Shown: in pieces, positions 1 through 18,655 of the stretch
How positions within the stretch are numbered: position 1 is the first letter of the stretch
Layout: every line of letters begins with the position of its first letter
From: Oligoflexales bacterium
GTDB lineage: Bacteria; Bdellovibrionota_B; Oligoflexia; Oligoflexales; JAGOVF01
Direction of reading: 5' to 3'
NCBI GenBank assembly: GCA_018060885.1
Contig: JAGOVF010000016.1
Coordinates: 1 to 40,537 of the forward strand
DNA: 40,537 nucleotides
The notes under the pieces: generated by a model
Told to the model about the DNA's origin: nothing
What the model saw: the letters and a program-made list of their open reading frames with translations, nothing else
The model's database searches: none
Program-made: the position numbers and the translations under genes

Positions 1-3000
1 TTAGTCGATGACAGTGGGATTGCAGAATATATAGCTGAGGAAGGTGATTGTAGCTCTACATCTTATAGTGCATACGGTGGCGGAGGCTCTATAGCTTTGA
101 ATTTAAGCGCTGGCAGCGCTCTAAAAACGGTCTGTTTAAAAGTCCGTGATGCAGCTGGCAATGTGAGCTCTATTGAGACAGATAGTATACAGTTGGATCA
201 AGTAGAACCTAATTCTACGATTGATGCACTTGGTGTGAGTGGATATTTTGGCCCAAATACCACAGTCGGTGCGAATACAACTTTTAGTGGTGCTGCAACA
301 GACAACTTAAGTGGATTGGACGAGATTTTCGTATCCGTGCAAGAAGGGGCAGGGCTGTGTTTGAACCTGGCAAAAACAGCATTCAGCGAGACTTGTCCCG
401 AGTGGATATTGGCGACTGGAACTGCAACTTGGAGTTTTTCAATAGCAGATGCAGAATTTACTGAAGGTGAAACTTATACTGTGAGATCAAAGGCGATTGA
501 TGTTGCAACTGTTGAAGAAACTTCTTTCCCGACTCTGGCCGTTCAATGGCTTGCCGCGGCCCCAAGTGCAGAATTTACAGTCAATAGTGACGATGCAGCG
601 ACCTCTAGCGCATCGGTGAATTTAGTTTTAGATGACGATACAGGCATAAGCGAATACTTCGCAGAAGTTGGCGCTTGTGGCACTCCGGTGTTTGTCGCTT
701 ATTTAGGTGGCGGAAATATAGCGTTTAATTTAACTGCCGGTCAAGGTATAAAAACAGTATGTCTTATAGTGAGAGATAGCGTAGGCAATACCAGCGCGAT
801 AGATACAGATGCGATCACCTTTGATAGTGTTGATCCAAGTGTCAGTATTACGATTGGTCAAAATATCGATGCAGATACGACAGCCGGCGTTAACACAAGC
901 TTTGCAGGAACAGCGAGTGATGTCGCAGGCAGTGGCCTTGATTCTGTCGAAGTCCAAATAAAACGTTTTAGTGATGGTTCTTGTTTAAACACGGCAAAAT
1001 CCGCGTTCAACGAAACATGTCCACACTATGTTGCAGCGACAGGAACCGATAACTGGAGCTTAGATGTCGCGGACGCACTCTTCGGAGATGGTAAATATGA
1101 AGTGACCGCTCGCGCGACCGATATTGCTCAAAATGAAAATAGCGCTAGCCAAATTCAGTTTTGGTTTTCAGAAGATAATCAAATGCGTTTTATTGATGTA
1201 GCCATCGGTGAAAAACATGCTTGCGGGCTTGGCATAAATGGCCTCGCCTATTGTTGGGGGCAAAACACAAATGGTCAGCTTGGAGTTGATGCTGCGACTG
1301 AAGTTGCAATAAACGCCTATGCTTATAAACCTCAATATGCTGTCAATGTGCCTGCTTCAGAGAAGTTTATTGCGCTGACAGCAGGAAGCTTGCATAGCTG
1401 TGGCCTCAATCAAGATGGTAAGATTTTCTGCTGGGGTTCCAACAGCCATGGGCAGATCGGCAACAACGGAGTCGGTGTTGGTAATGACCAAGAAACAGCA
1501 CTGCAGATTAGCTTGGGCGAAGCTCCGAGTGCATATTATTTGCAAGTCAAAGCAGCGGGCCAACATAGTTGCGCTTTACACATCAACGGTAAGGTTTATT
1601 GCTGGGGCAGGGGTGACAGTGGAGAGATCGGCGACGGTGGCACTACGCTTAATAACACATCTCCTGTTGAAACGAACCTACCTGGTGGAGAATTGTTTAT
1701 TAATCTCGCAGTCGGCCAATATCAAAACTGTGCAATGAGCAATAATTCACAAAAATTCTACTGCTGGGGTCGAGATAGTGATGGTGAGGTTGGCGATGGC
1801 ACTCCTGATGATGGCAATAATATTTTAGAAGATCCGATCGCGGTTGACTTAAGCGTGTCACCAAACTCAAAAATGATCCAAGCTGCAGGTAGTCGCTATG
1901 CGACATGTTCGTTATCGGCTGCTGGGCAGATATTTTGTTTCGGAAACGATGCCCAAGGTGCGGTAGGAGATGGCGCTGGGGATAGTGGCGTTGTAAAGTC
2001 TGCAGTGGCAGTCGTGCCAGAGACTGCTGGCAAGCGTTTTAGTGAAATATCTGCGGGATTAGATCATTTTTGTGCACTCAGCAGCGACGCAAAAATATGG
2101 TGCTGGGGCGATAATAGCAAAAATCAAGGCGGAAAAGATGTCGGCACTGAGGCGGATGTGTTTCAACCAAAGTTGGGAGACGACCAAACTAATTTGTTAT
2201 TTAAAAAAGTAGCAAGCGGAGGTTTGACAAGTTGCGGAATAGCTCACAATGGTAGCCTTTACTGTTTTGGATCTGATGATTTTGGTCAAAGAGGTGATGC
2301 GGGAATTGCCGATGCGGCATCGGAAAGTCCTGTGGCTGTTGATGTATCATCACTTGCAACATCGTCAGCCTTTGTTCAGATGGCTAGTGGCCGTTCTCAT
2401 CTCTGTGCGCTTTCAGGCGCTGGCCATGTCTATTGCTGGGGTAGTGACGACTCTGGACAGATAGGTAATGGTTCATCTCAAGATGGTGATCAAGATACAC
2501 CCATGATGGTAGAAGCAAATATGAGCAATGCTGGAGCAGCGGTGAGGTTTCGTTCTATAGCAGCTGCGGGTGACTATAGTTGTGCGCTTGCAACAAACAA
2601 CAAAGCTTATTGTTGGGGCGACAACACCTATGGACAGCTTGGCAATGGACTGTCTGGATCTGGGCAAAAAGCTGAGTATCCTGTTGCGGTTGGTGGAAAT
2701 CTAGAATTCCGATCTTTAGCACCTGGACTCTACCACGTTTGTGGTTTGAGGGCCGACGAAGGCAGTATTTATTGCTGGGGAAAAGGCGATACTGGGGCAA
2801 TTGGAGATGGCAATGATACATTGAGAACAGCTCCCACTCTAGTCAGTGGTGGATATACTTATATCGATCTTGCAGCAGGTAACGGATTTTCCTGTGGTGT
2901 TAGAGACAACCTCGACGCCTATTGCTGGGGGTCAGATTATTACCGCGCTTTAGGCGACGGAGATTCCGATACAAGTGGTAATGACCCAAGTAATGTTGTG

Positions 3001-3495
3001 ACAACAGCTGCCTCAGGGTTTTTAAACATTTCAGCGAAAAATAATCATATATGTGGACTAACAGCTGATCATACAGTCGAGTGTTGGGGACGTGGAAATC
3101 GCGGCCAGCTAGGTAACAATCAGCAAACGATCAAATCAGAATCTACAGTAACGACTTATGCGGGCAATGGCGTTAGAAGCTTAAGCGCTGGTGAAGAACA
3201 TACTTGCTTGAGCGCAGTAGATGGGCGTTTGCACTGCTTTGGGTCGAGTGACAATTATGTTTCTAATGGGGTACAATCTTCGGATGTGGTCAACCCATTT
3301 GATTTCTACGGTTTTGATGTCAATATAGTTAATGCGAAACAGGCAAGTTCGGGCCAAGGCAATACCTGTTTCATAAACGGCCAGGGCCAAATTCGCTGCA
3401 TAGGGCGTGACACCTCAGGTGAAAAAGGCGATGGCTCTAACCTCGATCCAGGTGAATTTGATGCCTTAGATCTGACAGGCCAACTTTGGTATTAG
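1..3495 (+). CDS. Large surface protein, Ig-like modules plus 14 RCC1 repeats (5' partial)
   Basis: The reading frame is open from the first base, so the gene begins upstream of the window; 1164 residues are visible. The first ~390 residues hold tandem Ig-/cadherin-like beta modules: the segment with 'CLKVRDAAGN' near the start recurs as 'CLIVRDSVGN', and 'SETCP' recurs as 'NETCP'. From about base 1190 to the stop there are 14 RCC1-type repeats of ~50-60 residues, each ending in a form of C-W-G-x4-GQLG. Fourteen would fit two seven-bladed propellers. Every repeat carries a cysteine pair about 10 residues apart (for example HSCGL...FCWG), which suggests a disulfide per blade and therefore an exported protein. 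RCC1 folds bind partner proteins or polysaccharide; the ligand here is unknown. A terminator follows at 3593-3624. Confidence 0.9.
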   Translation, partial: LVDDSGIAEYIAEEGDCSSTSYSAYGGGGSIALNLSAGSALKTVCLKVRDAAGNVSSIETDSIQLDQVEPNSTIDALGVSGYFGPNTTVGANTTFSGAATDNLSGLDEIFVSVQEGAGLCLNLAKTAFSETCPEWILATGTATWSFSIADAEFTEGETYTVRSKAIDVATVEETSFPTLAVQWLAAAPSAEFTVNSDDAATSSASVNLVLDDDTGISEYFAEVGACGTPVFVAYLGGGNIAFNLTAGQGIKTVCLIVRDSVGNTSAIDTDAITFDSVDPSVSITIGQNIDADTTAGVNTSFAGTASDVAGSGLDSVEVQIKRFSDGSCLNTAKSAFNETCPHYVAATGTDNWSLDVADALFGDGKYEVTARATDIAQNENSASQIQFWFSEDNQMRFIDVAIGEKHACGLGINGLAYCWGQNTNGQLGVDAATEVAINAYAYKPQYAVNVPASEKFIALTAGSLHSCGLNQDGKIFCWGSNSHGQIGNNGVGVGNDQETALQISLGEAPSAYYLQVKAAGQHSCALHINGKVYCWGRGDSGEIGDGGTTLNNTSPVETNLPGGELFINLAVGQYQNCAMSNNSQKFYCWGRDSDGEVGDGTPDDGNNILEDPIAVDLSVSPNSKMIQAAGSRYATCSLSAAGQIFCFGNDAQGAVGDGAGDSGVVKSAVAVVPETAGKRFSEISAGLDHFCALSSDAKIWCWGDNSKNQGGKDVGTEADVFQPKLGDDQTNLLFKKVASGGLTSCGIAHNGSLYCFGSDDFGQRGDAGIADAASESPVAVDVSSLATSSAFVQMASGRSHLCALSGAGHVYCWGSDDSGQIGNGSSQDGDQDTPMMVEANMSNAGAAVRFRSIAAAGDYSCALATNNKAYCWGDNTYGQLGNGLSGSGQKAEYPVAVGGNLEFRSLAPGLYHVCGLRADEGSIYCWGKGDTGAIGDGNDTLRTAPTLVSGGYTYIDLAAGNGFSCGVRDNLDAYCWGSDYYRALGDGDSDTSGNDPSNVVTTAASGFLNISAKNNHICGLTADHTVECWGRGNRGQLGNNQQTIKSESTVTTYAGNGVRSLSAGEEHTCLSAVDGRLHCFGSSDNYVSNGVQSSDVVNPFDFYGFDVNIVNAKQASSGQGNTCFINGQGQIRCIGRDTSGEKGDGSNLDPGEFDALDLTGQLWY

Positions 3496-8354: not shown

Positions 8355-9494
8355 TTAATTGCCAAATTCATGTGTCCACCAAACTTGAATCTCCGCACAG
8401 GGGCTACTATTAACTCCACCAGGACATCTATTGCCACCACCGTGGTTAACAATATCGGCAGCTTTGCGGATAAGCCTATTATTGGTGCGGGAACCACCGT
8501 TTGCGGGCAATGCAAGGGCTTCCTTTTGAGTTTCATAAGCAATGCTATGGCACCCCACACAGGATTGCTCTAATTTTGAGCGTAAGGTATTTTCATAATA
8601 TTGTCTGCCTATACTTTGCATTCCACCGATACTAAAATTCATCGGAGAACCAAATAAAATGTGTTCGGCGTTTTCGAAAACGGCTTTAGCTGTGAGCTGA
8701 TAGTTTTTCCCATCTTTATACAGTGACGCAATTTCTGCAGTAAATGCATGGGAACCAGCGGAGTCATTATCAAACGCATCTTGATCTGCAATGACGCTCG
8801 TCATAAGAACTGCTTGTGTAAGATCTCCACCCTCGACATAAAGCTTTATTTCTAATTTCGTTGTTTCATCATTTGCGATAGCTGCCCAACCGCGAATGGC
8901 GCCAGTTTCCGATATTTCGACCAAGCTCCCATTGAGCTCGTATTCGGGGGGGGGATCGGTAGGCGGATCTTCAGGTTTTTTGTTTTTTGTGACATACCAC
9001 CAATCGATAACATTTTTACAAATTTCTGTTTCATTTATCGGTGTATTGCATTGATCTCCGCCAATATGGCTTGAGCCTTCAGAATTGCGGATTTTTTGGT
9101 GGAGTTTATTTACAACTTGAGTATCACCAACAATTAAAAGAGCATGCATATTTGAAAATTCAAAAATTGAGAGTGGCCCTATATTGCCCTCGACATGGCA
9201 AGAACTACATTTTTCTTTGAATGCTGGAACAATGGTTTCAGCAAAAAAAGCTTTTGATTTCGCTAAAGGATCTGGTGTGGGTTGTTCTTCTTCTTCTTCT
9301 TCTTCTTCTTCTTCTTCTTCTTCTTCTTTTTCTTTTGGTTGTTCATCTTTAAGATCGCCATCTTTATCATTTTTACTTTCATCTTTTTGCGCCACGCGAT
9401 TATTTTGATTATTTGATTCAGAGGAACAATTAATAGCGAGTATCAACAGACTTAGGAATAAGAGATTTGCGAGCGTAAAAAATATTCTTTTCAA
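8355..9494 (-). CDS. Lipoprotein with two cytochrome c-like modules and a poly-Glu linker
   Basis: The 379-residue product starts at TTG (9494). A hydrophobic N-terminus ends in LAINC (Cys23), a lipobox with unusual Asn at -1. Residues 24-75 are an acidic linker with 14 consecutive Glu. Two haem c motifs follow: CSSCH at 96-100 and CVGCH at 312-316. Each is followed by the same pattern: a helix, then H-x-GG-x2-C, a second Cys and I-x2-WW (about 143-166 and 351-373), so the protein is an internal duplication. Between the copies, residues ~185-290 form a beta-rich domain. This resembles planctomycete-type and delta-type surface cytochromes; it may carry electrons at the outer or inner membrane, or use haem structurally. 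The partner is unknown. No maturation genes are nearby. Confidence 0.75.
   Translation of the reverse strand: MKRIFFTLANLLFLSLLILAINCSSESNNQNNRVAQKDESKNDKDGDLKDEQPKEKEEEEEEEEEEEEEEQPTPDPLAKSKAFFAETIVPAFKEKCSSCHVEGNIGPLSIFEFSNMHALLIVGDTQVVNKLHQKIRNSEGSSHIGGDQCNTPINETEICKNVIDWWYVTKNKKPEDPPTDPPPEYELNGSLVEISETGAIRGWAAIANDETTKLEIKLYVEGGDLTQAVLMTSVIADQDAFDNDSAGSHAFTAEIASLYKDGKNYQLTAKAVFENAEHILFGSPMNFSIGGMQSIGRQYYENTLRSKLEQSCVGCHSIAYETQKEALALPANGGSRTNNRLIRKAADIVNHGGGNRCPGGVNSSPCAEIQVWWTHEFGN
9285..9326 (-). repeat. Trinucleotide microsatellite, 14 x GAA (poly-Glu)
   Basis: Fourteen perfect TTC units on the + strand read as GAA on the coding strand and encode Glu57-Glu70 of the cytochrome-like lipoprotein. 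Because the unit is three bases, slippage would lengthen or shorten the linker without shifting the frame. Interrupted flanks (KEK) suggest decay of a longer tract. Confidence 0.97.
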
Positions 9495-9740: not shown

Positions 9741-10736
9741 GTGGCAACAAATAAGTATTCTGGCGCGCAAAAGGCAGCAATTCTGATGCTTGCATTCGGC
9801 GAAGATATTGCCGCAGAAATCTTTAAGCATATGAGTGATTTTGAAGTTAAGCGAATTGGTACGGCGATGTCACGTCTTGGGCGCTTAGATCAAGAGATCG
9901 TCGACGAAGTCATGGTTGAGTTCTATCAAATACTACAACAAAACAAAAAATTCTTTTATGGAAGTACTGAATTTACTAAGAATGTACTCGGAGCTGCATT
10001 TAAAGGTGGCGATGCTGAAGGTTTAATTGAATCGCTGTCACTTCAAGCTGCAAATCTTGAATCTCTTGAATTGATAGATCCAAGAACTTTGGCAAATTTC
10101 ATCCGCAATGAACACCCACAAACCATTGCGTTGATTTTAGCTCACCTTGATCCCAAAAAATGTGGAGAAACCTTAAAGGTACTGCCAGAAGCTTTGCATA
10201 CAGAGATAATACTACGTATCGCCAATCTCGATGCAGTCGCTCCAGAGATTATCGATGAAATTGATGACGTATTACGAGATGAGATTCAAGCAATGGGATC
10301 TGTTTCTGCAAGTAATTTAGGAGGTGTCCATCCTATAGCCGAGATGCTCAACCTTATTGATAAGGCAACGGAAGAGCAAATTCTCGACAACTTAGAAGAA
10401 AGAGATCCAGACCTTGCGGAACAAATCCGAAACTTGATGTTTGTCTTTGATGATTTGGTCAAGATTGATGGGAGAGGGATACAGGAGCTTATTAAAAATG
10501 TATCAAATGATAAGTGGAAAATAGCTCTCAAAGTAGCGTCGGAAGGTGTTAAAGATCTCGTTTTTGCAAATATGTCGAGCCGAGCTGCAGAGATGTTGCG
10601 CGAAGATATGGAGGCTAGTCCTGCAGTTAAATTGTCAGAGGTAGAAGCTTGTCAATTTGAAATCGTACAGATAGCCCGTAAATTAGAAGAAGAAGGTAAG
10701 TTAATTATAGCTTCTGGAGATGCCTCTTACGTGTAG
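9741..10736 (+). CDS. fliG: Flagellar motor switch protein FliG
   Basis: The 331-residue product is a full-length FliG. FliG couples the FliF MS ring to the C ring and contacts MotA to produce and switch rotation. Features: N domain with KAAILMLAFGEDIAAEIFKH (11-30), the EHPQT motif at 124-128, MFVFDDLV at 233-240, and the torque helix around 264-290 (GVKDLVFANMSSRAAEMLRED) with the conserved charged residues. The start is GTG at 9741 with AAGG at 9731-9734. It stands alone, with no fliF, fliH, fliM or fliN in the window; instead it faces, tail to tail, a two-gene unit that includes a FliF/FliG-like fusion. Confidence 0.97.
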   Translation: MATNKYSGAQKAAILMLAFGEDIAAEIFKHMSDFEVKRIGTAMSRLGRLDQEIVDEVMVEFYQILQQNKKFFYGSTEFTKNVLGAAFKGGDAEGLIESLSLQAANLESLELIDPRTLANFIRNEHPQTIALILAHLDPKKCGETLKVLPEALHTEIILRIANLDAVAPEIIDEIDDVLRDEIQAMGSVSASNLGGVHPIAEMLNLIDKATEEQILDNLEERDPDLAEQIRNLMFVFDDLVKIDGRGIQELIKNVSNDKWKIALKVASEGVKDLVFANMSSRAAEMLREDMEASPAVKLSEVEACQFEIVQIARKLEEEGKLIIASGDASYV

Positions 10737-10762: not shown

Positions 10763-12208
10763 TTATTTTTTTAATTTTCTGCCTAAAATTTTCTGAAGAT
10801 CTTCCTCTGAATATCGTACAAACTCAGTCTTTGCTTGGCTGACCTGCCACAAACCGGGTGCAGATCGACGTGGTTTTTTAAGATATTGCTTCTGGGTTAT
10901 GTAAATTTCAGCACTATAGCTTAATTTTGCCTTTGAAAAATGCGCAGCGAGGATTTTAGCTTCTTCGAATAGTTTCTTTTTCTCAAGTTCCGATAGTTTT
11001 TTCATTTCTCGGTATGAAATGATGACATGCGCTCCACTAAGGTTGACTGCATGGAGCCAGAAATCTTCTGATCGAGCAGACTTTGTCAATTGATCGTTAT
11101 CAACAGACCCTTTACCGACATATATGGAAACCCCAGTTTCGGAAAGATAAGTCATATATGCTTGGTGTGAAGCTAACTTAACTTCTTTTTCGATTGCATT
11201 TGAAACTTTGCTGTACTTGATTTGCTTGGACTTAGTCAATTTAAGCGTTAAAGTTTCTATTAAGTCGTGACTCGCATTGCCTAATTCTAAAAGCTCAAGG
11301 TTACTATGCAATTCAACTAGAGAGCTTTTGATTTTTTCGATGTGATCGCGCATCAATAGAGCCGCTCGTTGCAGCTTTTTTAGACGGTGGTAGTAGGAGT
11401 CTAAATTTTGTCCAAAACTAAATTTCGGATTTAAAGGAATAACATAAAGAGAATTTTCTAAATTCGCATTTAGACTTAATTCACTCATCCCTGGAACAAA
11501 GAACTCGGAGTGACTTTTTAATAATTCGGCATATTTACGCGTTTGCGCAATTTCTTCTAAACTAGGAAGCTTTTTCTCGTGTTCACAAAGGCTGCGCTTC
11601 AAATATTTAATCTGTCGTCGCAATTTTTTTTTCAATATTGAAACCTGTTCAAGTGATTGCACTTGATTTTCTGGTGTTTGAATATCTGAATTGCGATTAA
11701 TACCTTGTTGAGTTTGCGACTCTATTTTTAATTTAAAGGGATTTAGTTGCGGTTTGATCGCTTCAACGGAAAATGTTGAATCTTTACGTTTTGTAAAAAC
11801 TCCTTTTGCGCCAAAACGTAGGAGTGATTCGCTTTTCTGATTTAAAATTTCGAAATTCCCACCATCACGTGATGACATTACAAGGTATTTGTCTTCAGAA
11901 GTCTGCGGTTGATACAATCGTACTAAGTACAATAAATTATTTTCAACGCGATGAATCTCACTTATAATTCCACCTAAGATGAGTCGGCGCAAATGTTCTA
12001 AAGCAAAACCGCTACTTTTACAGCTATAAGGTTTCAGATCTAGCAGCTCGACTTTAAAATCTTCAGGGTGTGCCGATATTACAAGAAAACACTTAGTTGC
12101 GTGTTTCTTGGGTGTTTCTTGATTAATTGTTTCTAAATCTAAATTATAGATTTGAGCGCAGTATCTGCGTGAATCCAGGACCCAAATTTTTTGAATGCGG
12201 AATTTCAA
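10763..12208 (-). CDS. NFACT/RqcH-like protein
   Basis: The 481-residue product has the C-terminal NFACT-R domain: ETGVSIYVGKGSVDNDQL then EDFWLHA at 381-387 and GAHVII, the family signature. The middle (about 188-215 and 270-310) is charged and helical like the coiled-coil arms of RqcH. The N domain (1-160) is diverged; where RqcH has the Asp-Arg pair used in alanine tailing, the aligned segment here (EIHRVENNLLYLV) appears to lack it. RqcH family proteins bind stalled 50S subunits and recruit Ala-tRNA; this one may bind ribosomes or RNA without tailing. The start is TTG at 12208 with no clear Shine-Dalgarno, 20 bases after the stop of the FliF/FliG-like fusion, suggesting coupled expression. 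Confidence 0.75.
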   Translation of the reverse strand: MKFRIQKIWVLDSRRYCAQIYNLDLETINQETPKKHATKCFLVISAHPEDFKVELLDLKPYSCKSSGFALEHLRRLILGGIISEIHRVENNLLYLVRLYQPQTSEDKYLVMSSRDGGNFEILNQKSESLLRFGAKGVFTKRKDSTFSVEAIKPQLNPFKLKIESQTQQGINRNSDIQTPENQVQSLEQVSILKKKLRRQIKYLKRSLCEHEKKLPSLEEIAQTRKYAELLKSHSEFFVPGMSELSLNANLENSLYVIPLNPKFSFGQNLDSYYHRLKKLQRAALLMRDHIEKIKSSLVELHSNLELLELGNASHDLIETLTLKLTKSKQIKYSKVSNAIEKEVKLASHQAYMTYLSETGVSIYVGKGSVDNDQLTKSARSEDFWLHAVNLSGAHVIISYREMKKLSELEKKKLFEEAKILAAHFSKAKLSYSAEIYITQKQYLKKPRRSAPGLWQVSQAKTEFVRYSEEDLQKILGRKLKK

Positions 12209-12228: not shown

Positions 12229-14646
12229 TTATGCAACAAAGCGCTCTCTTTGCAGCGGTGCATAATCTTCTGATCCGTCTGCAACCATACTATCAGCAAA
12301 TATCATATCGTTAATCGACATAAGGCTGATCGCACCTTTGCTTGCTAGGGCCCGCACTTTTCCTAGAATTTTTAATTCCACCATACGGTAAAGCTCGTCG
12401 TCAATTCCAGACATATTCATTAAATCTTCTCGCCAGCTTTCAGCAAGTTCTTCTGGAACTTTGCTAAACAGTAAATTGCGTATGTGATCTTTCGTGCCGC
12501 GTAGGAAAGTGACAAGATCTGTGCGTTCTAAGCCAAGTACGAGTTCCAAAACTTGGCCATCGCGAAGATAAGGAATAACTTCCAAGGTAACTAGTTTTAG
12601 TTTGATACCGCGGGCAGCTTCAGGATTGGTTGAATTTAAATTGCGCATCAAGGCCTTTTGCTCTGTTAAATCTGCCTTTTCCAATAAGTCGTATAATATG
12701 TCTGTTGTTCTTAAGTTGTGGGTATCAAATTCTGGTCTTGTGGTTACTTTCTTAGCTAAAGCTTGTGCAACAGTACTTAAATAGTCTTTCGGAAAAGCTT
12801 CCGCTCGGCAAAGTTCTTTCAATAGCTGAACTTTAGATGAACCCTCAAACATATCAAAGACGGCTTTGCGACGCTTATGATCTAATTGGGTTAATACAAT
12901 GCTTTGCACTTGAGGTTTTTCGTCTACTATTAAGTTGTGTAGTTGTCCAGCATCGAGATTAAATACAAAGTCAAAAACTTGCATGGTTTTGCGCGTCAAT
13001 ACCCGTATTTCGTTAGCTGTGACTCTTGTTTTTAGCTTACTCAACAATTCGATTTCTTCGTCTAAGGTGAAATCAAAATGGGTTTTTTGATAGTACTCCG
13101 TCAACTCATATAAATCGCGTTGAAAATTTGGATCGCCGAGCAGTTCAAAAATAACACCTCGACCAAAAATATGCACATATTTGGCTGTCTGTTCTATGCC
13201 TTCGTCTTGAAGAATTCTACCATAAGTTTCCTTCGCCACTTTCGGGTTGTCTAGAAAAAAATCCGAGAGTTCTTCGCGCAATTTTTGAATGCGGATCTTT
13301 TTGCCAAGTTCGTCTTCTGAAACATTCGCTCCAGAATTTTGATTATTTTCTTGGCGATTCGATTCGTTAGAATTTTTATAAATAGAATCATTGCCCGCTT
13401 GTCCAGATTGTAATGGACGGTGCGCATAATCGACCATCATCTGAGCATCTTTGCGTGCGCTATTAAAGCGAGATATTAAAAACAGACCTAATAACAGCAC
13501 AACAAGTGCGCCTAATGCATATACGGTTGTATTTTCTCCTAAAGATCCGAGGAGAGTATTTTGAGAATCAGAGTTTTTTGCCTCAAGGCTTGAGCTACTT
13601 GCCAGCTTTTCGCTAGAGCTAAGTGAGTTGAGTTCCTTTGAATTCAATGATGAATTTGATTGCGAAGTAGAGACGGAAGATTCTCGTGAAATTATTTCTT
13701 TAGTACCGGCGAGATCACGAAAAATTTGTAAAGTTTCGCGCAATTTTCCAAGACCATAAGGATCTTGTTCGCTAAGTTTTTTCTTGTTGTAAGATTCTGG
13801 AAATTCGGACACGACGACATCGAGTCGCACAGGTGTGATCCAGCGTAGGTTTGCCTTCATAATGTTGCTAATTTTATTGCGCTCTTCGATTTCTAAGGAA
13901 CTGTCCATGCTGACTTCAATATCAATGTTTTCAACTTTAAGCAGCCCATCATCTGGGCTGTTATTACGAAATATTTCGGTGTTGCTGTATTGAGTTGCTT
14001 GATCGGGAGATACCAAATTGCCATCTATTCCAACGCGAGAAAGTATGCATTTCTCAGGACAATAAGTGTCGATGATACGATTGATCTTCGAGTCAATTTG
14101 ACTATGAAGAGAATTTTTAATTTGCGACTCTAAAGAAAGTGACTTGCCAATTTGAGGCAGTTCAATGCTTTGCCAGGTTAATTTGACCCGATGTCCCAGC
14201 GTTGAAAGATGATTGGTAAGAATATTTTGGAGTCGCTCTCGGTTTGTTTGTGTGACGCGGCTGTCGATTTGGATAGTAGCAATTATTTCGTCGACAAAAT
14301 AGCTTGTGCCATCACTTCCTTTAACACTTTCAAAGCCTAAATCCATATCTTCTGGCAAAGCTTCATCGAGAGTCACTTCTACTCCTAATAATTGACAGGC
14401 ATCACCGCAATATTGATTTAGGACTTTTTCAATTTTTGTTTTGACCTGTTTGCTGGTCTCTTGATTCATGTATTCGTAATTACCGCTTTGCGGGCTTTGA
14501 GCTGTTGCAGTTGAAGTTACAGCTAAAAAATTTGCAATTAATACAATGTAGAGAAGAAAGTGTAAGTTAATCTGTTTAAGTTGGCTCATACAAGAACAAG
14601 CGAGTTTTCGCTGTTTTTGACTTGCTGAAATTATTTCTATTTTCAT
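12229..14646 (-). CDS. FliF-like/FliG-like fusion membrane protein
   Basis: The 805-residue product looks like a FliF ring protein fused to a FliG. From the N-terminus: a hydrophobic segment at ~29-48; two tandem ~100-residue alpha/beta modules (about 65-164 and 183-283), each resembling the FliF ring-building motif and each with Y-C-x3-C (Cys80/84 and Cys196/200); a Ser/Asn-rich linker (320-372); a transmembrane helix (374-393); a cytoplasmic linker; then LREELSDFFLDNPKVAKE (456-473), which resembles the FliF tail that docks into FliG; and from ~480 to 785 a diverged FliG with EKPQ at 576-579 in place of EHPQ and a FliG-C-like end. GGAGGAGAG precedes the ATG by 4 bases. NFACT follows 20 bases downstream. 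A role in a motor- or ring-like complex is inference from by-eye similarity. Confidence 0.7.
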   Translation of the reverse strand: MKIEIISASQKQRKLACSCMSQLKQINLHFLLYIVLIANFLAVTSTATAQSPQSGNYEYMNQETSKQVKTKIEKVLNQYCGDACQLLGVEVTLDEALPEDMDLGFESVKGSDGTSYFVDEIIATIQIDSRVTQTNRERLQNILTNHLSTLGHRVKLTWQSIELPQIGKSLSLESQIKNSLHSQIDSKINRIIDTYCPEKCILSRVGIDGNLVSPDQATQYSNTEIFRNNSPDDGLLKVENIDIEVSMDSSLEIEERNKISNIMKANLRWITPVRLDVVVSEFPESYNKKKLSEQDPYGLGKLRETLQIFRDLAGTKEIISRESSVSTSQSNSSLNSKELNSLSSSEKLASSSSLEAKNSDSQNTLLGSLGENTTVYALGALVVLLLGLFLISRFNSARKDAQMMVDYAHRPLQSGQAGNDSIYKNSNESNRQENNQNSGANVSEDELGKKIRIQKLREELSDFFLDNPKVAKETYGRILQDEGIEQTAKYVHIFGRGVIFELLGDPNFQRDLYELTEYYQKTHFDFTLDEEIELLSKLKTRVTANEIRVLTRKTMQVFDFVFNLDAGQLHNLIVDEKPQVQSIVLTQLDHKRRKAVFDMFEGSSKVQLLKELCRAEAFPKDYLSTVAQALAKKVTTRPEFDTHNLRTTDILYDLLEKADLTEQKALMRNLNSTNPEAARGIKLKLVTLEVIPYLRDGQVLELVLGLERTDLVTFLRGTKDHIRNLLFSKVPEELAESWREDLMNMSGIDDELYRMVELKILGKVRALASKGAISLMSINDMIFADSMVADGSEDYAPLQRERFVA

Positions 14647-16293: not shown

Positions 16294-17292
16294 TTATAAG
16301 CGAGACTGTTTTAATTCTTCAGCTTTTTGTACGCTTAATTGTTCGAGTTGATCAGCGCTTATTTTTTCAAATCGCTTGCGTTGAAAACCTTCGTTAACTA
16401 TGCGATATTCCCCAGAGCTATTTTTTTGCCAATAAAGAACTTTCCTACCTTTTGAAATAAAGCGTTGATCGCCGCGAAAGTCTTGATTCATAATACTAAC
16501 AGCATATTTTGGATGGGTGACAACCCTGATATCATCAATGCGTAGATCCATTACTTTGTAGCTAGCGAAGACTCGTTTTTTATACTCAGAATAAGCACGG
16601 TAATTTTTCCCATCGGTATTAAATGCTTCATGATAATGGTTGATATAATTGGCATGGTCGCGCTTGGCCCAACTCTGTGCCCATTCTTCGGTGTTACGCA
16701 TGAGTTCCGCAACGTCTTCTTGTCGGTTTAATTGATTTTTCTCTCTGGAGATTGCGACAATGCCTTGAAAGGGTTGTAGCCATTTTGATAGATTGGAGAT
16801 GTCCTCGTTGTAAAATGCGACACAGCCTTCGGTGACTTTTGCGGCGCTGATGCGTTGCGCATTTTCAACACCATGCAGCCAAATCCCGTAGCCAGTTTTG
16901 CCTTGAATTTGATCTATAGGATTTGGAAAGTCGATAGGAATAGCAAATGCACCGTATTTCTCTGGCAATGTTTTTCCGTCGATATGATGTTGAGTAAAAT
17001 AGATTCCCTCGGGAGTTCTGTTATCGCCTTGTTTTTCTTTATCTCCGTCCTCTTTGCCGAGAGCAATTTGGAATTTTTTTAATAAACGTGGCAAAGTCCC
17101 GGGACTTGGCAAAGTGCTTAATTCGGCTGTCAAACTGTTCTTTACAACTGATAAAATAACAAGCTCTTGCCCGATAGCGTTCACTAATGTGCTATTGTTG
17201 CTGTTGTCCGAACTGCCTAATAGTTGTGCTTGCGATATAAATCCTATGATGCATGTTGCCATAAGAATAAAAATTTTAAAGGTTTGCCGCAA
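16294..17292 (-). CDS. L,D-transpeptidase (YkuD/YafK type) with C-terminal NTF2-like domain
   Basis: The 332-residue exported protein begins at TTG (17292) behind AGGAGG. It has a signal peptide (about 1-22). The catalytic domain has GDNRTPEG near 89-96, WLHG at 138-141 (His140) and TEGC with nucleophile Cys157; family members usually have S-x-GC, so Thr replaces Ser. Enzymes of this group form or cleave meso-DAP cross-links in peptidoglycan or attach proteins to it. Residues ~198-320 (EEWAQSWAKRD ... LYWQK ... YRIVNEGFQ) form an NTF2/SnoaL-like domain as in Cds6/YafK-like proteins. It is cotranscribed with the histidine kinase downstream. Confidence 0.88.
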   Translation of the reverse strand: MRQTFKIFILMATCIIGFISQAQLLGSSDNSNNSTLVNAIGQELVILSVVKNSLTAELSTLPSPGTLPRLLKKFQIALGKEDGDKEKQGDNRTPEGIYFTQHHIDGKTLPEKYGAFAIPIDFPNPIDQIQGKTGYGIWLHGVENAQRISAAKVTEGCVAFYNEDISNLSKWLQPFQGIVAISREKNQLNRQEDVAELMRNTEEWAQSWAKRDHANYINHYHEAFNTDGKNYRAYSEYKKRVFASYKVMDLRIDDIRVVTHPKYAVSIMNQDFRGDQRFISKGRKVLYWQKNSSGEYRIVNEGFQRKRFEKISADQLEQLSVQKAEELKQSRL

Positions 17293-17428: not shown

Positions 17429-18469
17429 TTAGGTTAAACTTGCTAAACGCAGTTGTTCTAAAATTTCTTTAAATATCGCCGGAGCTTCTGCTTTATACTC
17501 AGTCCATTGGCCTGAAATGGGGTGGGTAAATCCTAAAATTTTTGCATGAAGAAGTTGGCCTTTTAGGCGAAAAACGGCCTGGGCCAAGCTTGTCGGGAAG
17601 CTTTGCGGCAACATGCACGGGCCGTGGTATTGCAAATCACCTAATACTGGCAAGGCGAGAGATTTGCTATGTACGCGTATTTGGTGGGTGCGGCCTGTGT
17701 ATAATTTGACTTCTACAAGAGAAAGGCGATTAAAAAATACTTCAAGACGTTTGAATTCAGATTTGGAGTAGCGAAATGCATGTGCAGTCTGCTCTTCCTC
17801 GGTCAGGCGCAAAAATTGAGTTTTTGGTATTGAGAGAAAGCGCATGCGCCGCTGTGGATCTCTGTATAAATAAGTCTCGATAACCGAAGATTGCCAGGGG
17901 CAGACGCCATTTAATATGGCTTCATAAACTCGTAAATTTGTTTTTTTCTGAAATTGCTCCGCGAGAAAAACGTGAGCTGCATTTGTTTTTGCAAAGACCA
18001 TAACTCCGCTAGTATCTCGATCTAAGCGATGTACAACGCCGTCACGTTCGGGTTGTTGGTCATGATAAAGCTTTGAGAGTTGGCCGCAATGTTTTTGGAT
18101 TTGATCGAGCAGGCTAGCTTGATGAGAGCCTGGTGAAGGGTGGACACGGATTCCGCTCGGCTTGTTGACTACTATCAAACATTCATCTTCGTGTAAGATT
18201 TCTAGAGGGTCTTTGTAGAAAAATTCTCCGACTGTTTCGGAACCAACTTTTGCGTTTAAGGCGATTTTTTCCTTTAAAGCCAAAACATCGCCGGGCTGTA
18301 TACGGAGTCCAGGTTTTATGCTGGGTTTGTTTTTATTTAAAATGTGACCCTGGAGAATCAGCTCCTTGACGATGCTTCGGGCCAAAGGTTGGTATTTAGC
18401 AATAAAATTGTCTAAACGTAGACCAGAATCTTCCGCTCCGACCATTATTTCAAAAGGTTCAATCATCAT
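17429..18469 (-). CDS. RluA-family rRNA pseudouridine synthase (RluC/RluD type)
   Basis: The gene encodes 346 residues from the ATG at 18469. An N-terminal S4 RNA-binding domain (LRLDNFIAKYQPLARSIVKEL) is followed by the catalytic domain with HRLDRDTSG at 147-155; Asp150 is the expected nucleophile. The later GRTHQIRVH motif is also present. These enzymes convert specific uridines of 23S rRNA to pseudouridine; RluD modifies helix 69 and RluC other sites, and the sequence alone does not decide which. A longer reading frame starts at 18640, but it would overlap sthA, and its extra 57 residues do not resemble the family, so it is rejected. Confidence 0.88.
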   Translation of the reverse strand: MMIEPFEIMVGAEDSGLRLDNFIAKYQPLARSIVKELILQGHILNKNKPSIKPGLRIQPGDVLALKEKIALNAKVGSETVGEFFYKDPLEILHEDECLIVVNKPSGIRVHPSPGSHQASLLDQIQKHCGQLSKLYHDQQPERDGVVHRLDRDTSGVMVFAKTNAAHVFLAEQFQKKTNLRVYEAILNGVCPWQSSVIETYLYRDPQRRMRFLSIPKTQFLRLTEEEQTAHAFRYSKSEFKRLEVFFNRLSLVEVKLYTGRTHQIRVHSKSLALPVLGDLQYHGPCMLPQSFPTSLAQAVFRLKGQLLHAKILGFTHPISGQWTEYKAEAPAIFKEILEQLRLASLT

Positions 18470-18655
18470 CGTGGAGGCTTTCGCGCTTGTTATATCTAAA
18501 TTATTAAAAAAATTCAGGAAATGCTGAAGTATTAACGCTCTGTCAATTAAATCTTCATTTATCCCACTGTTAGCGCAGTGTGATGCGCCGATATGCTCAG
18601 TACCATGTCCGTTATTAACTTGGCTAGGACTAAATTTCACGGAAAGAGCGTAGCT

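Follow-up and report, generated by a model that had tools for sequence, protein, structure and literature searches.

A natural single-chain protein of FliF-like ring modules and FliG in flagellated Oligoflexia, and its MotAB-linked relatives

Results

A fusion gene and a conventional fliG on the same contig

The stretch of DNA that we analysed (the window) has 40,537 nucleotides and forms contig C76 in the draft genome (3.65 Mb) of an Oligoflexales bacterium. On its reverse strand, at positions 12229–14646, lies an intact open reading frame with an ATG start, which encodes an 805-amino-acid fusion protein with the domain order RBM-RBM-TM-FliG. We call this protein and its homologs family A. 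The single open frame is kept in 25 other full-length homologs, which are 27–49% identical to the window protein, and its presence in all 26 full-length members rules out a pseudogene or an artefact of fused reading frames. In the 26-row alignment of these sequences (A1), the N-terminus is mostly hydrophobic and the cytoplasmic half is conserved; by hydropathy, most members carry one N-terminal hydrophobic segment, and the family has one transmembrane helix.

In the window protein, the N-terminal hydrophobic segment (amino acids 25–49; 14500–14574, reverse strand as for all parts of this gene) is either a signal peptide or a first transmembrane helix. Two RBM-like modules with an α-β-β-α-β topology follow, the first at amino acids 54–161 (14164–14487) with invariant C80 and C84, and the second, homologous to the first, at amino acids 168–280 (13807–14145) with invariant C196 and C200. 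The alignment then delineates an invariant-rich segment, DPxGLxKL..IF..A.TKEII (amino acids 295–318; 13693–13764), and a Ser/Asn-rich linker of variable length (amino acids 319–370; 13537–13692), which leads into the transmembrane helix predicted by hydropathy (amino acids 371–397; 13456–13536). The cytoplasmic part consists of an all-helical region that is FliG_N-like by fold only (amino acids 443–555; 12982–13320), a FliG middle domain recognized by Pfam in which EKPQ stands for EHPQ (amino acids 568–636; 12739–12945), and a FliG C-terminal domain in which the charges at positions 281 and 297 of the E. coli numbering are reversed (amino acids 669–775; 12322–12642). That the window protein is a natural chain of two RBM modules, a transmembrane helix, and a diverged FliG is thus well supported.

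A conventional flagellar fliG of 331 amino acids, identified by Pfam and NCBIfam models, is a separate gene at 9741–10736 on the forward strand. The earlier note on this DNA had drawn attention to its vicinity; the gene is there, but its nearness is not conserved, since in relatives 29 kb or 124 kb separate the two genes, or they are found on different contigs. A second, diverged standalone FliG is encoded elsewhere in the window genome (contig C138, 2145–3146, reverse strand, locus L034), and many of the relatives likewise carry a pair. The gene immediately downstream of the fusion codes for an NFACT-family protein (10763–12208, reverse strand), which is also found downstream in a genome of the same family (L035) and nearby in two other loci (L038, L044). 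Elsewhere in the window are a 1132-amino-acid protein that contains numerous RCC1 repeats and weakly matches Big_13 (97–3495, forward strand) and a lipoprotein-like, weakly cytochrome-like protein with a long glutamate run and CxxCH motifs (8355–9494, reverse strand).

The N-terminal half consists of two FliF-like modules

An AlphaFold2 model of the N-terminal half, built on the 26-row alignment, comprises two α-β-β-α-β modules with a mean pLDDT of 86.5. Its best matches among PDB folds are two structures of Salmonella FliF, one from the basal body (7bk0, E=4e-7) and one of the 33-mer ring (6scn, E=2e-5); YscD is the fifth best, and OsmC-like and other proteins follow with weaker E-values. TM-scores over the whole half are low (0.24–0.29, with a large rmsd), which we attribute to a different placement of the two modules, and the likeness to FliF therefore concerns the modules and not their overall arrangement. 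The two repeats of family A share homology (E=1.7e-16, with shuffled sequences scoring far lower), and each holds an invariant C-x3-C motif formed by the cysteine pairs given above.

Sequence comparison reaches FliF by a longer route. The window protein has no match to Pfam YscJ_FliF or YscJ_FliF_C at E<=1, its N-terminal half has no match in the PDB by sequence, and a direct profile comparison of this half with FliF gives none either (probability 1%). The family A repeats do match the RBM of a second family, family B, which is described below (E about 1e-7 and 1.5e-6), and the family B RBM in turn matches RBM3 of FliF (probability 92, E=7e-7) with a score of 43.2, against a maximum of 17.5 for shuffled controls on filled columns and an outlier of 127.9 in an earlier shuffle. 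The FliF homology of the N-terminal half is, as such, visible by fold and by a profile chain through family B, not by a direct sequence match. The same note had read the segment DNPKVAKE as a helix resembling the C-terminal FliG-binding tail of FliF. This reading is unsupported, as the segment scores 2.5 against that helix, below shuffled controls.

The C-terminal half is a FliG with an altered motor face

Both FliG domains of the window protein score above the Pfam cut-offs (FliG_M at 568–636, E=3e-9; FliG_C at 669–775, E=1.5e-12), and a profile-profile comparison of the C-terminal half, anticipated in the earlier note, matches FliG with E=8e-14 over 229 columns, in which only the middle and C domains are aligned. 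The AlphaFold2 model of this half is all-helical (pLDDT 83.6). All thirteen of its PDB matches at E<=0.001 are FliG structures, the top one being full-length FliG (3hjl, E=8e-8, 322 columns), and single-domain superpositions normalised by the target give TM-scores of 0.83 for the C domain (1qc7) and 0.86 for the middle domain (4fq0). The match to 3hjl also spans the FliG N domain, which is undetected in family A by sequence profile. The presence of the middle and C domains in the fusion is therefore certain, and that of the N domain is suggested by the modelled fold only. Taken with the N-terminal half, this fold and profile evidence bears out the proposal that FliF-like ring modules, a transmembrane helix, and FliG are joined in one natural chain.

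This FliG is diverged. The window protein scores 54 bits with the NCBIfam fliG equivalog model TIGR00207, far under the cut-off of 226.7. The FliM-binding motif of FliG, EHPQ, reads EKP(Q) in the family A alignment, and the substitution had been correctly spotted in the window protein beforehand. In the flagellar motor, MotA drives FliG at the charged stator-contact residues K264, R281, D288, D289, and R297. For the numbering we used E. coli FliG and MotA sequences whose named residues agree with the known ones. At the position of R281, all 26 family A rows carry E or D; at that of R297, D or E is found in 22 of 22 rows, the other four being gapped; and the position of K264 is basic in only two of the 26. 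D288 and D289 stay acidic in most rows. Canonical FliG proteins from genomes of the same clade retain all five kinds of charge (K/R, E, D/E, K). We read the family A pattern, from sequence, as a probable loss or inversion of the usual contact with MotA.

Family A occurs in flagellated genomes

Family A was found in 28 of the 58 genomes of the window's GTDB class and phylum that we searched, so that the survey of other genomes proposed in the earlier note did recover the same architecture. The named records belong to Oligoflexales (including Pseudobacteriovorax) and some Silvanigrellales. A single-protein query of wider genome contigs returned no relatives; an alignment-based query then gave 23, all compatible with Oligoflexales or Silvanigrellales or derived from vaguely labelled MAGs, although its search patterns were narrow and may miss other phyla. 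In a search of plasmids for family A, only an ordinary FliG matched. In a tree of the FliG M+C region, which contains long branches, family A forms one clade with support of 99/99.

When genomes with FliF and/or FlhA are counted as flagellated and those with neither as non-flagellated, family A occurs in 27 of the 48 flagellated genomes and in none of the eight non-flagellated ones (n=56; Fisher p=0.005, uncorrected for relatedness), and part of this association may reflect shared ancestry. It was never found without flagellar genes: FliF and/or FlhA always accompany it in the genome, and its hosts retain separate fliF and/or flhA, fliM/N, and fliG, with gaps that may stem from incomplete assembly. 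The window genome itself encodes ordinary FliF, FlhA, and FliM/N as well as the conventional FliG. Flagella are in turn independent of family A, since 21 flagellated genomes lack the gene.

The gene order around family A is conserved in many relatives and includes a ParA-like ATPase, DnaJ/HTH_25, RluD, a YkuD L,D-transpeptidase, a DsbA-like thioredoxin, a cNMP-binding protein, a PALP-CBS enzyme, and PilMNOP. The window retains YkuD (16294–17292, reverse strand) and the RluD-type pseudouridine synthase (17429–18640, reverse strand), and a PAS/HWE kinase stands where relatives have DsbA. The DsbA-like neighbour and the invariant cysteine pairs hint at disulfides in the periplasmic modules, and the family A RBMs would fit a disulfide-stabilised ring. 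The conserved neighbours include no flagellar genes, and neither motA/motB nor export genes were found in the neighbourhoods examined.

A homologous family is linked to MotA and MotB

Long ORFs that match FliG_C but do not belong to family A brought us to family B. Its proteins have about 550–815 amino acids, an N-terminus that is hydrophobic in most of them, a single RBM-like region, a transmembrane helix, and a FliG-like end. The two families align over 595 columns (hhalign probability 99, E=1.7e-18), and in a profile comparison family B matches FliG with the N domain included (E=2.6e-14). Of the 28 loci with a long family B gene, 21 also have genes for MotA and MotB at a distance of up to about 5 kb, usually directly adjacent, and often a TPR protein. 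The survey of nearby motA/motB envisaged in the earlier note thus found none beside family A but located them beside its homologs. For one family B MotA, the closest structures are PomA/MotA, and its partner MotB has plug and OmpA domains and the conserved channel aspartate. Position 281 of family B is R or K in 10 of 19 sequences, and position 289 is acidic in 16 of 19.

Three genomes combine an RBM-TM-FliG protein, MotA, and MotB with no match to FlhA, FliF, or FliM/N: G006 (locus L239), which is 84% complete and has a divergent family B member, and G010 (L187) and G023 (L188), which are 93–96% complete. The window genome has a family B operon of its own (contig C149, 7520–11394, reverse strand, locus L186), which encodes a 573-amino-acid RBM-TM-FliG-like protein, MotA, MotB, and a TPR protein and is a candidate second motor of this organism; the genome contains eight MotA/ExbB matches. 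Judged by their gene content, family B loci look like self-contained non-flagellar rotary motors.

Two further observations concern loci of this kind. RBM-TM-FliG-like proteins of 579–581 amino acids with a cysteine-bearing RBM occur in large clusters with MotA and MotB (L056, 1994–14659, and L055) in two genomes without family A, G020 and G017. Several family B operons also contain a protein with a weak SpoIIE-phosphatase match (L190, 9993–11768, forward strand, and clustered genes in L194, L198, L202, and L204), which suggests signalling control.

Discussion

Starting from the observed domain order, homology, and distribution of the fusion protein, from its charge reversal, and from the operon linkage of its relatives, we propose the following model. 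The fusion would be a subunit of an inner-membrane ring. Its two periplasmic RBM modules may, by their fold, build a collar akin to the MS-ring, the transmembrane helix would cross the membrane with the presumed orientation, and the FliG-like part would form a cytoplasmic ring in a fixed 1:1 ratio. Working beside a complete ordinary flagellar motor, such an assembly would most likely be an accessory ring that belongs to the base of the flagellum or to the flagellated pole of the cell, where it might serve as a scaffold, as a partner of the stator or the C-ring, or as a spacer. The fusion shares its ancestry with the wider RBM-TM-FliG family, members of which carry their own MotAB and are probably compact one-chain rotors. 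We favor an accessory ring over a torque-bearing rotor because the residues driven by MotA are charge-reversed. Several observations speak against this model: FliF is not matched directly by sequence profile, FliG_N goes undetected by sequence, 21 flagellated genomes lack the gene, and its neighbours are not flagellar, with no DsbA gene at this site in the window genome. The chances that the fusion is indeed a ring in the membrane that serves the flagellum in an accessory role, its motor face being altered and bearing no torque, appear evenly balanced to us; its role and its partner are what we infer from the above.

A second reading, in which the fusion is the rotor of another ion-driven motor that is turned by MotAB encoded elsewhere and drives a load other than a filament, is possible but rather unlikely. 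It draws on the whole-length homology to MotAB-linked family B, on the three family B genomes without flagellar matches, and on the multiple MotA/ExbB matches of the window genome. Furthermore, the FliG_C model resembles MotAB-bound FliG (8ucs_H, TM-score 0.74 by target) but with an E-value of about 1. Against it stand the absence of motA/motB from the family A neighbourhoods examined, the reversed charges at positions 281 and 297, and the strict co-occurrence of family A with flagellar genes.

The known system closest in layout is FliF of Chlamydiaceae, a natural fusion of FliF with FliG(M), in which a pair of RBM-type periplasmic modules, a transmembrane helix, and a FliG domain make up one chain (Bergeron 2016, PMC4768692). 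As this fusion is already published, the architecture as such is not new, contrary to the supposition in the earlier note that no natural example was known. Chlamydiaceae FliF has about 330 amino acids and only the middle domain of FliG, and its hosts are not thought to be flagellated, whereas family A, at 805 amino acids in the window protein, has both the M and C domains, RBMs with cysteine pairs, a long Ser-rich linker, and flagellated hosts with a separate FliF. The shared broad order, together with the place of YscD among the five best folds of the N-terminal half, would also fit an injectisome-kind secretion platform, a supporting ring for the export gate of a type III system, which has been discussed in the case of the Chlamydia fusion. 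We consider this improbable for family A: its genomes carry essentially one FlhA/SctV-type gene, export genes are absent from the neighbourhoods examined, and the chlamydial FliF model of NCBIfam (NF004606/PRK05934) has no match to the window protein at E<=1.

That the fusion replaces FliF and FliG as the working flagellar rotor is very improbable, even though both functions lie in one chain and an engineered FliF-FliG fusion is reported to be functional in Salmonella and another to assemble in Vibrio (PMC11481574), because the window genome has ordinary FliF, FliG, FliM/N, and FlhA, 21 flagellated genomes do without the fusion, and its stator-facing charges are reversed. The engineered proteins (PDB 8z4d) likewise place both rotor rings in one chain; they are man-made joins of true FliF and FliG, whereas family A is natural and diverged. 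On the strength of the separate conventional proteins, the window protein is not the flagellar rotor itself, as the earlier note had surmised, and its suggestion of a second ring or motor platform fits the existence of the homologous, MotAB-linked family B.

Family A has both likenesses to the flagellar proteins and departures from them. It resembles flagellar FliF in the best-matching fold of its N-terminal half and in the hydrophobic segment and transmembrane helix that flank the periplasmic region, and differs in having two modules with invariant cysteine pairs and a FliG cytoplasmic part instead of the FliF tail. Its middle and C domains resemble those of flagellar FliG whether judged by Pfam, by profile, or by fold, and it differs in being tethered to the membrane, in the altered EHPQ motif, and in residues 281 and 297, which are acidic instead of basic throughout the family.

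The rotor of FliF and FliG and the stator of MotAB are known as the flagellar motor. In the sections drawn on here, a 2025 FIT/GIT survey of MotAB and its non-flagellar relatives has a single mention of FliG, in its role of flagellar rotor, and contains no FliG-bearing non-flagellar operon (PMC12505986). Family B does share features with these MotAB relatives: the structures nearest to one of its MotA proteins are those of flagellar MotA/PomA, and the partner MotB carries plug and OmpA domains. We found no description of a non-flagellar FliG-bearing motor in the open-access literature, and of all parts of this work, the MotAB-linked relatives in non-flagellated genomes are the likeliest to be new. 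Oligoflexia may possess a self-contained non-flagellar motor, driven by ions, that combines a single-chain RBM-TM-FliG rotor with a dedicated MotAB stator and a TPR protein as partner and that occurs also without flagellar export and C-ring genes; the window protein would be a branch of this rotor superfamily that has become specialised and associated with the flagellum. We hold this view with no greater confidence in its truth than in its opposite.

The window protein is a natural 1:1 fusion of an MS-ring-like part and FliG, and it bears on the old puzzle of the symmetry mismatch between those rings. If the proposal is true, natural one-chain FliF-FliG-like rotors with their own stators, in genomes without export gate and C-ring genes, would constitute a new class of rotary machine, and the origin of the flagellar rotor and its function without a secretion apparatus would become directly testable questions.
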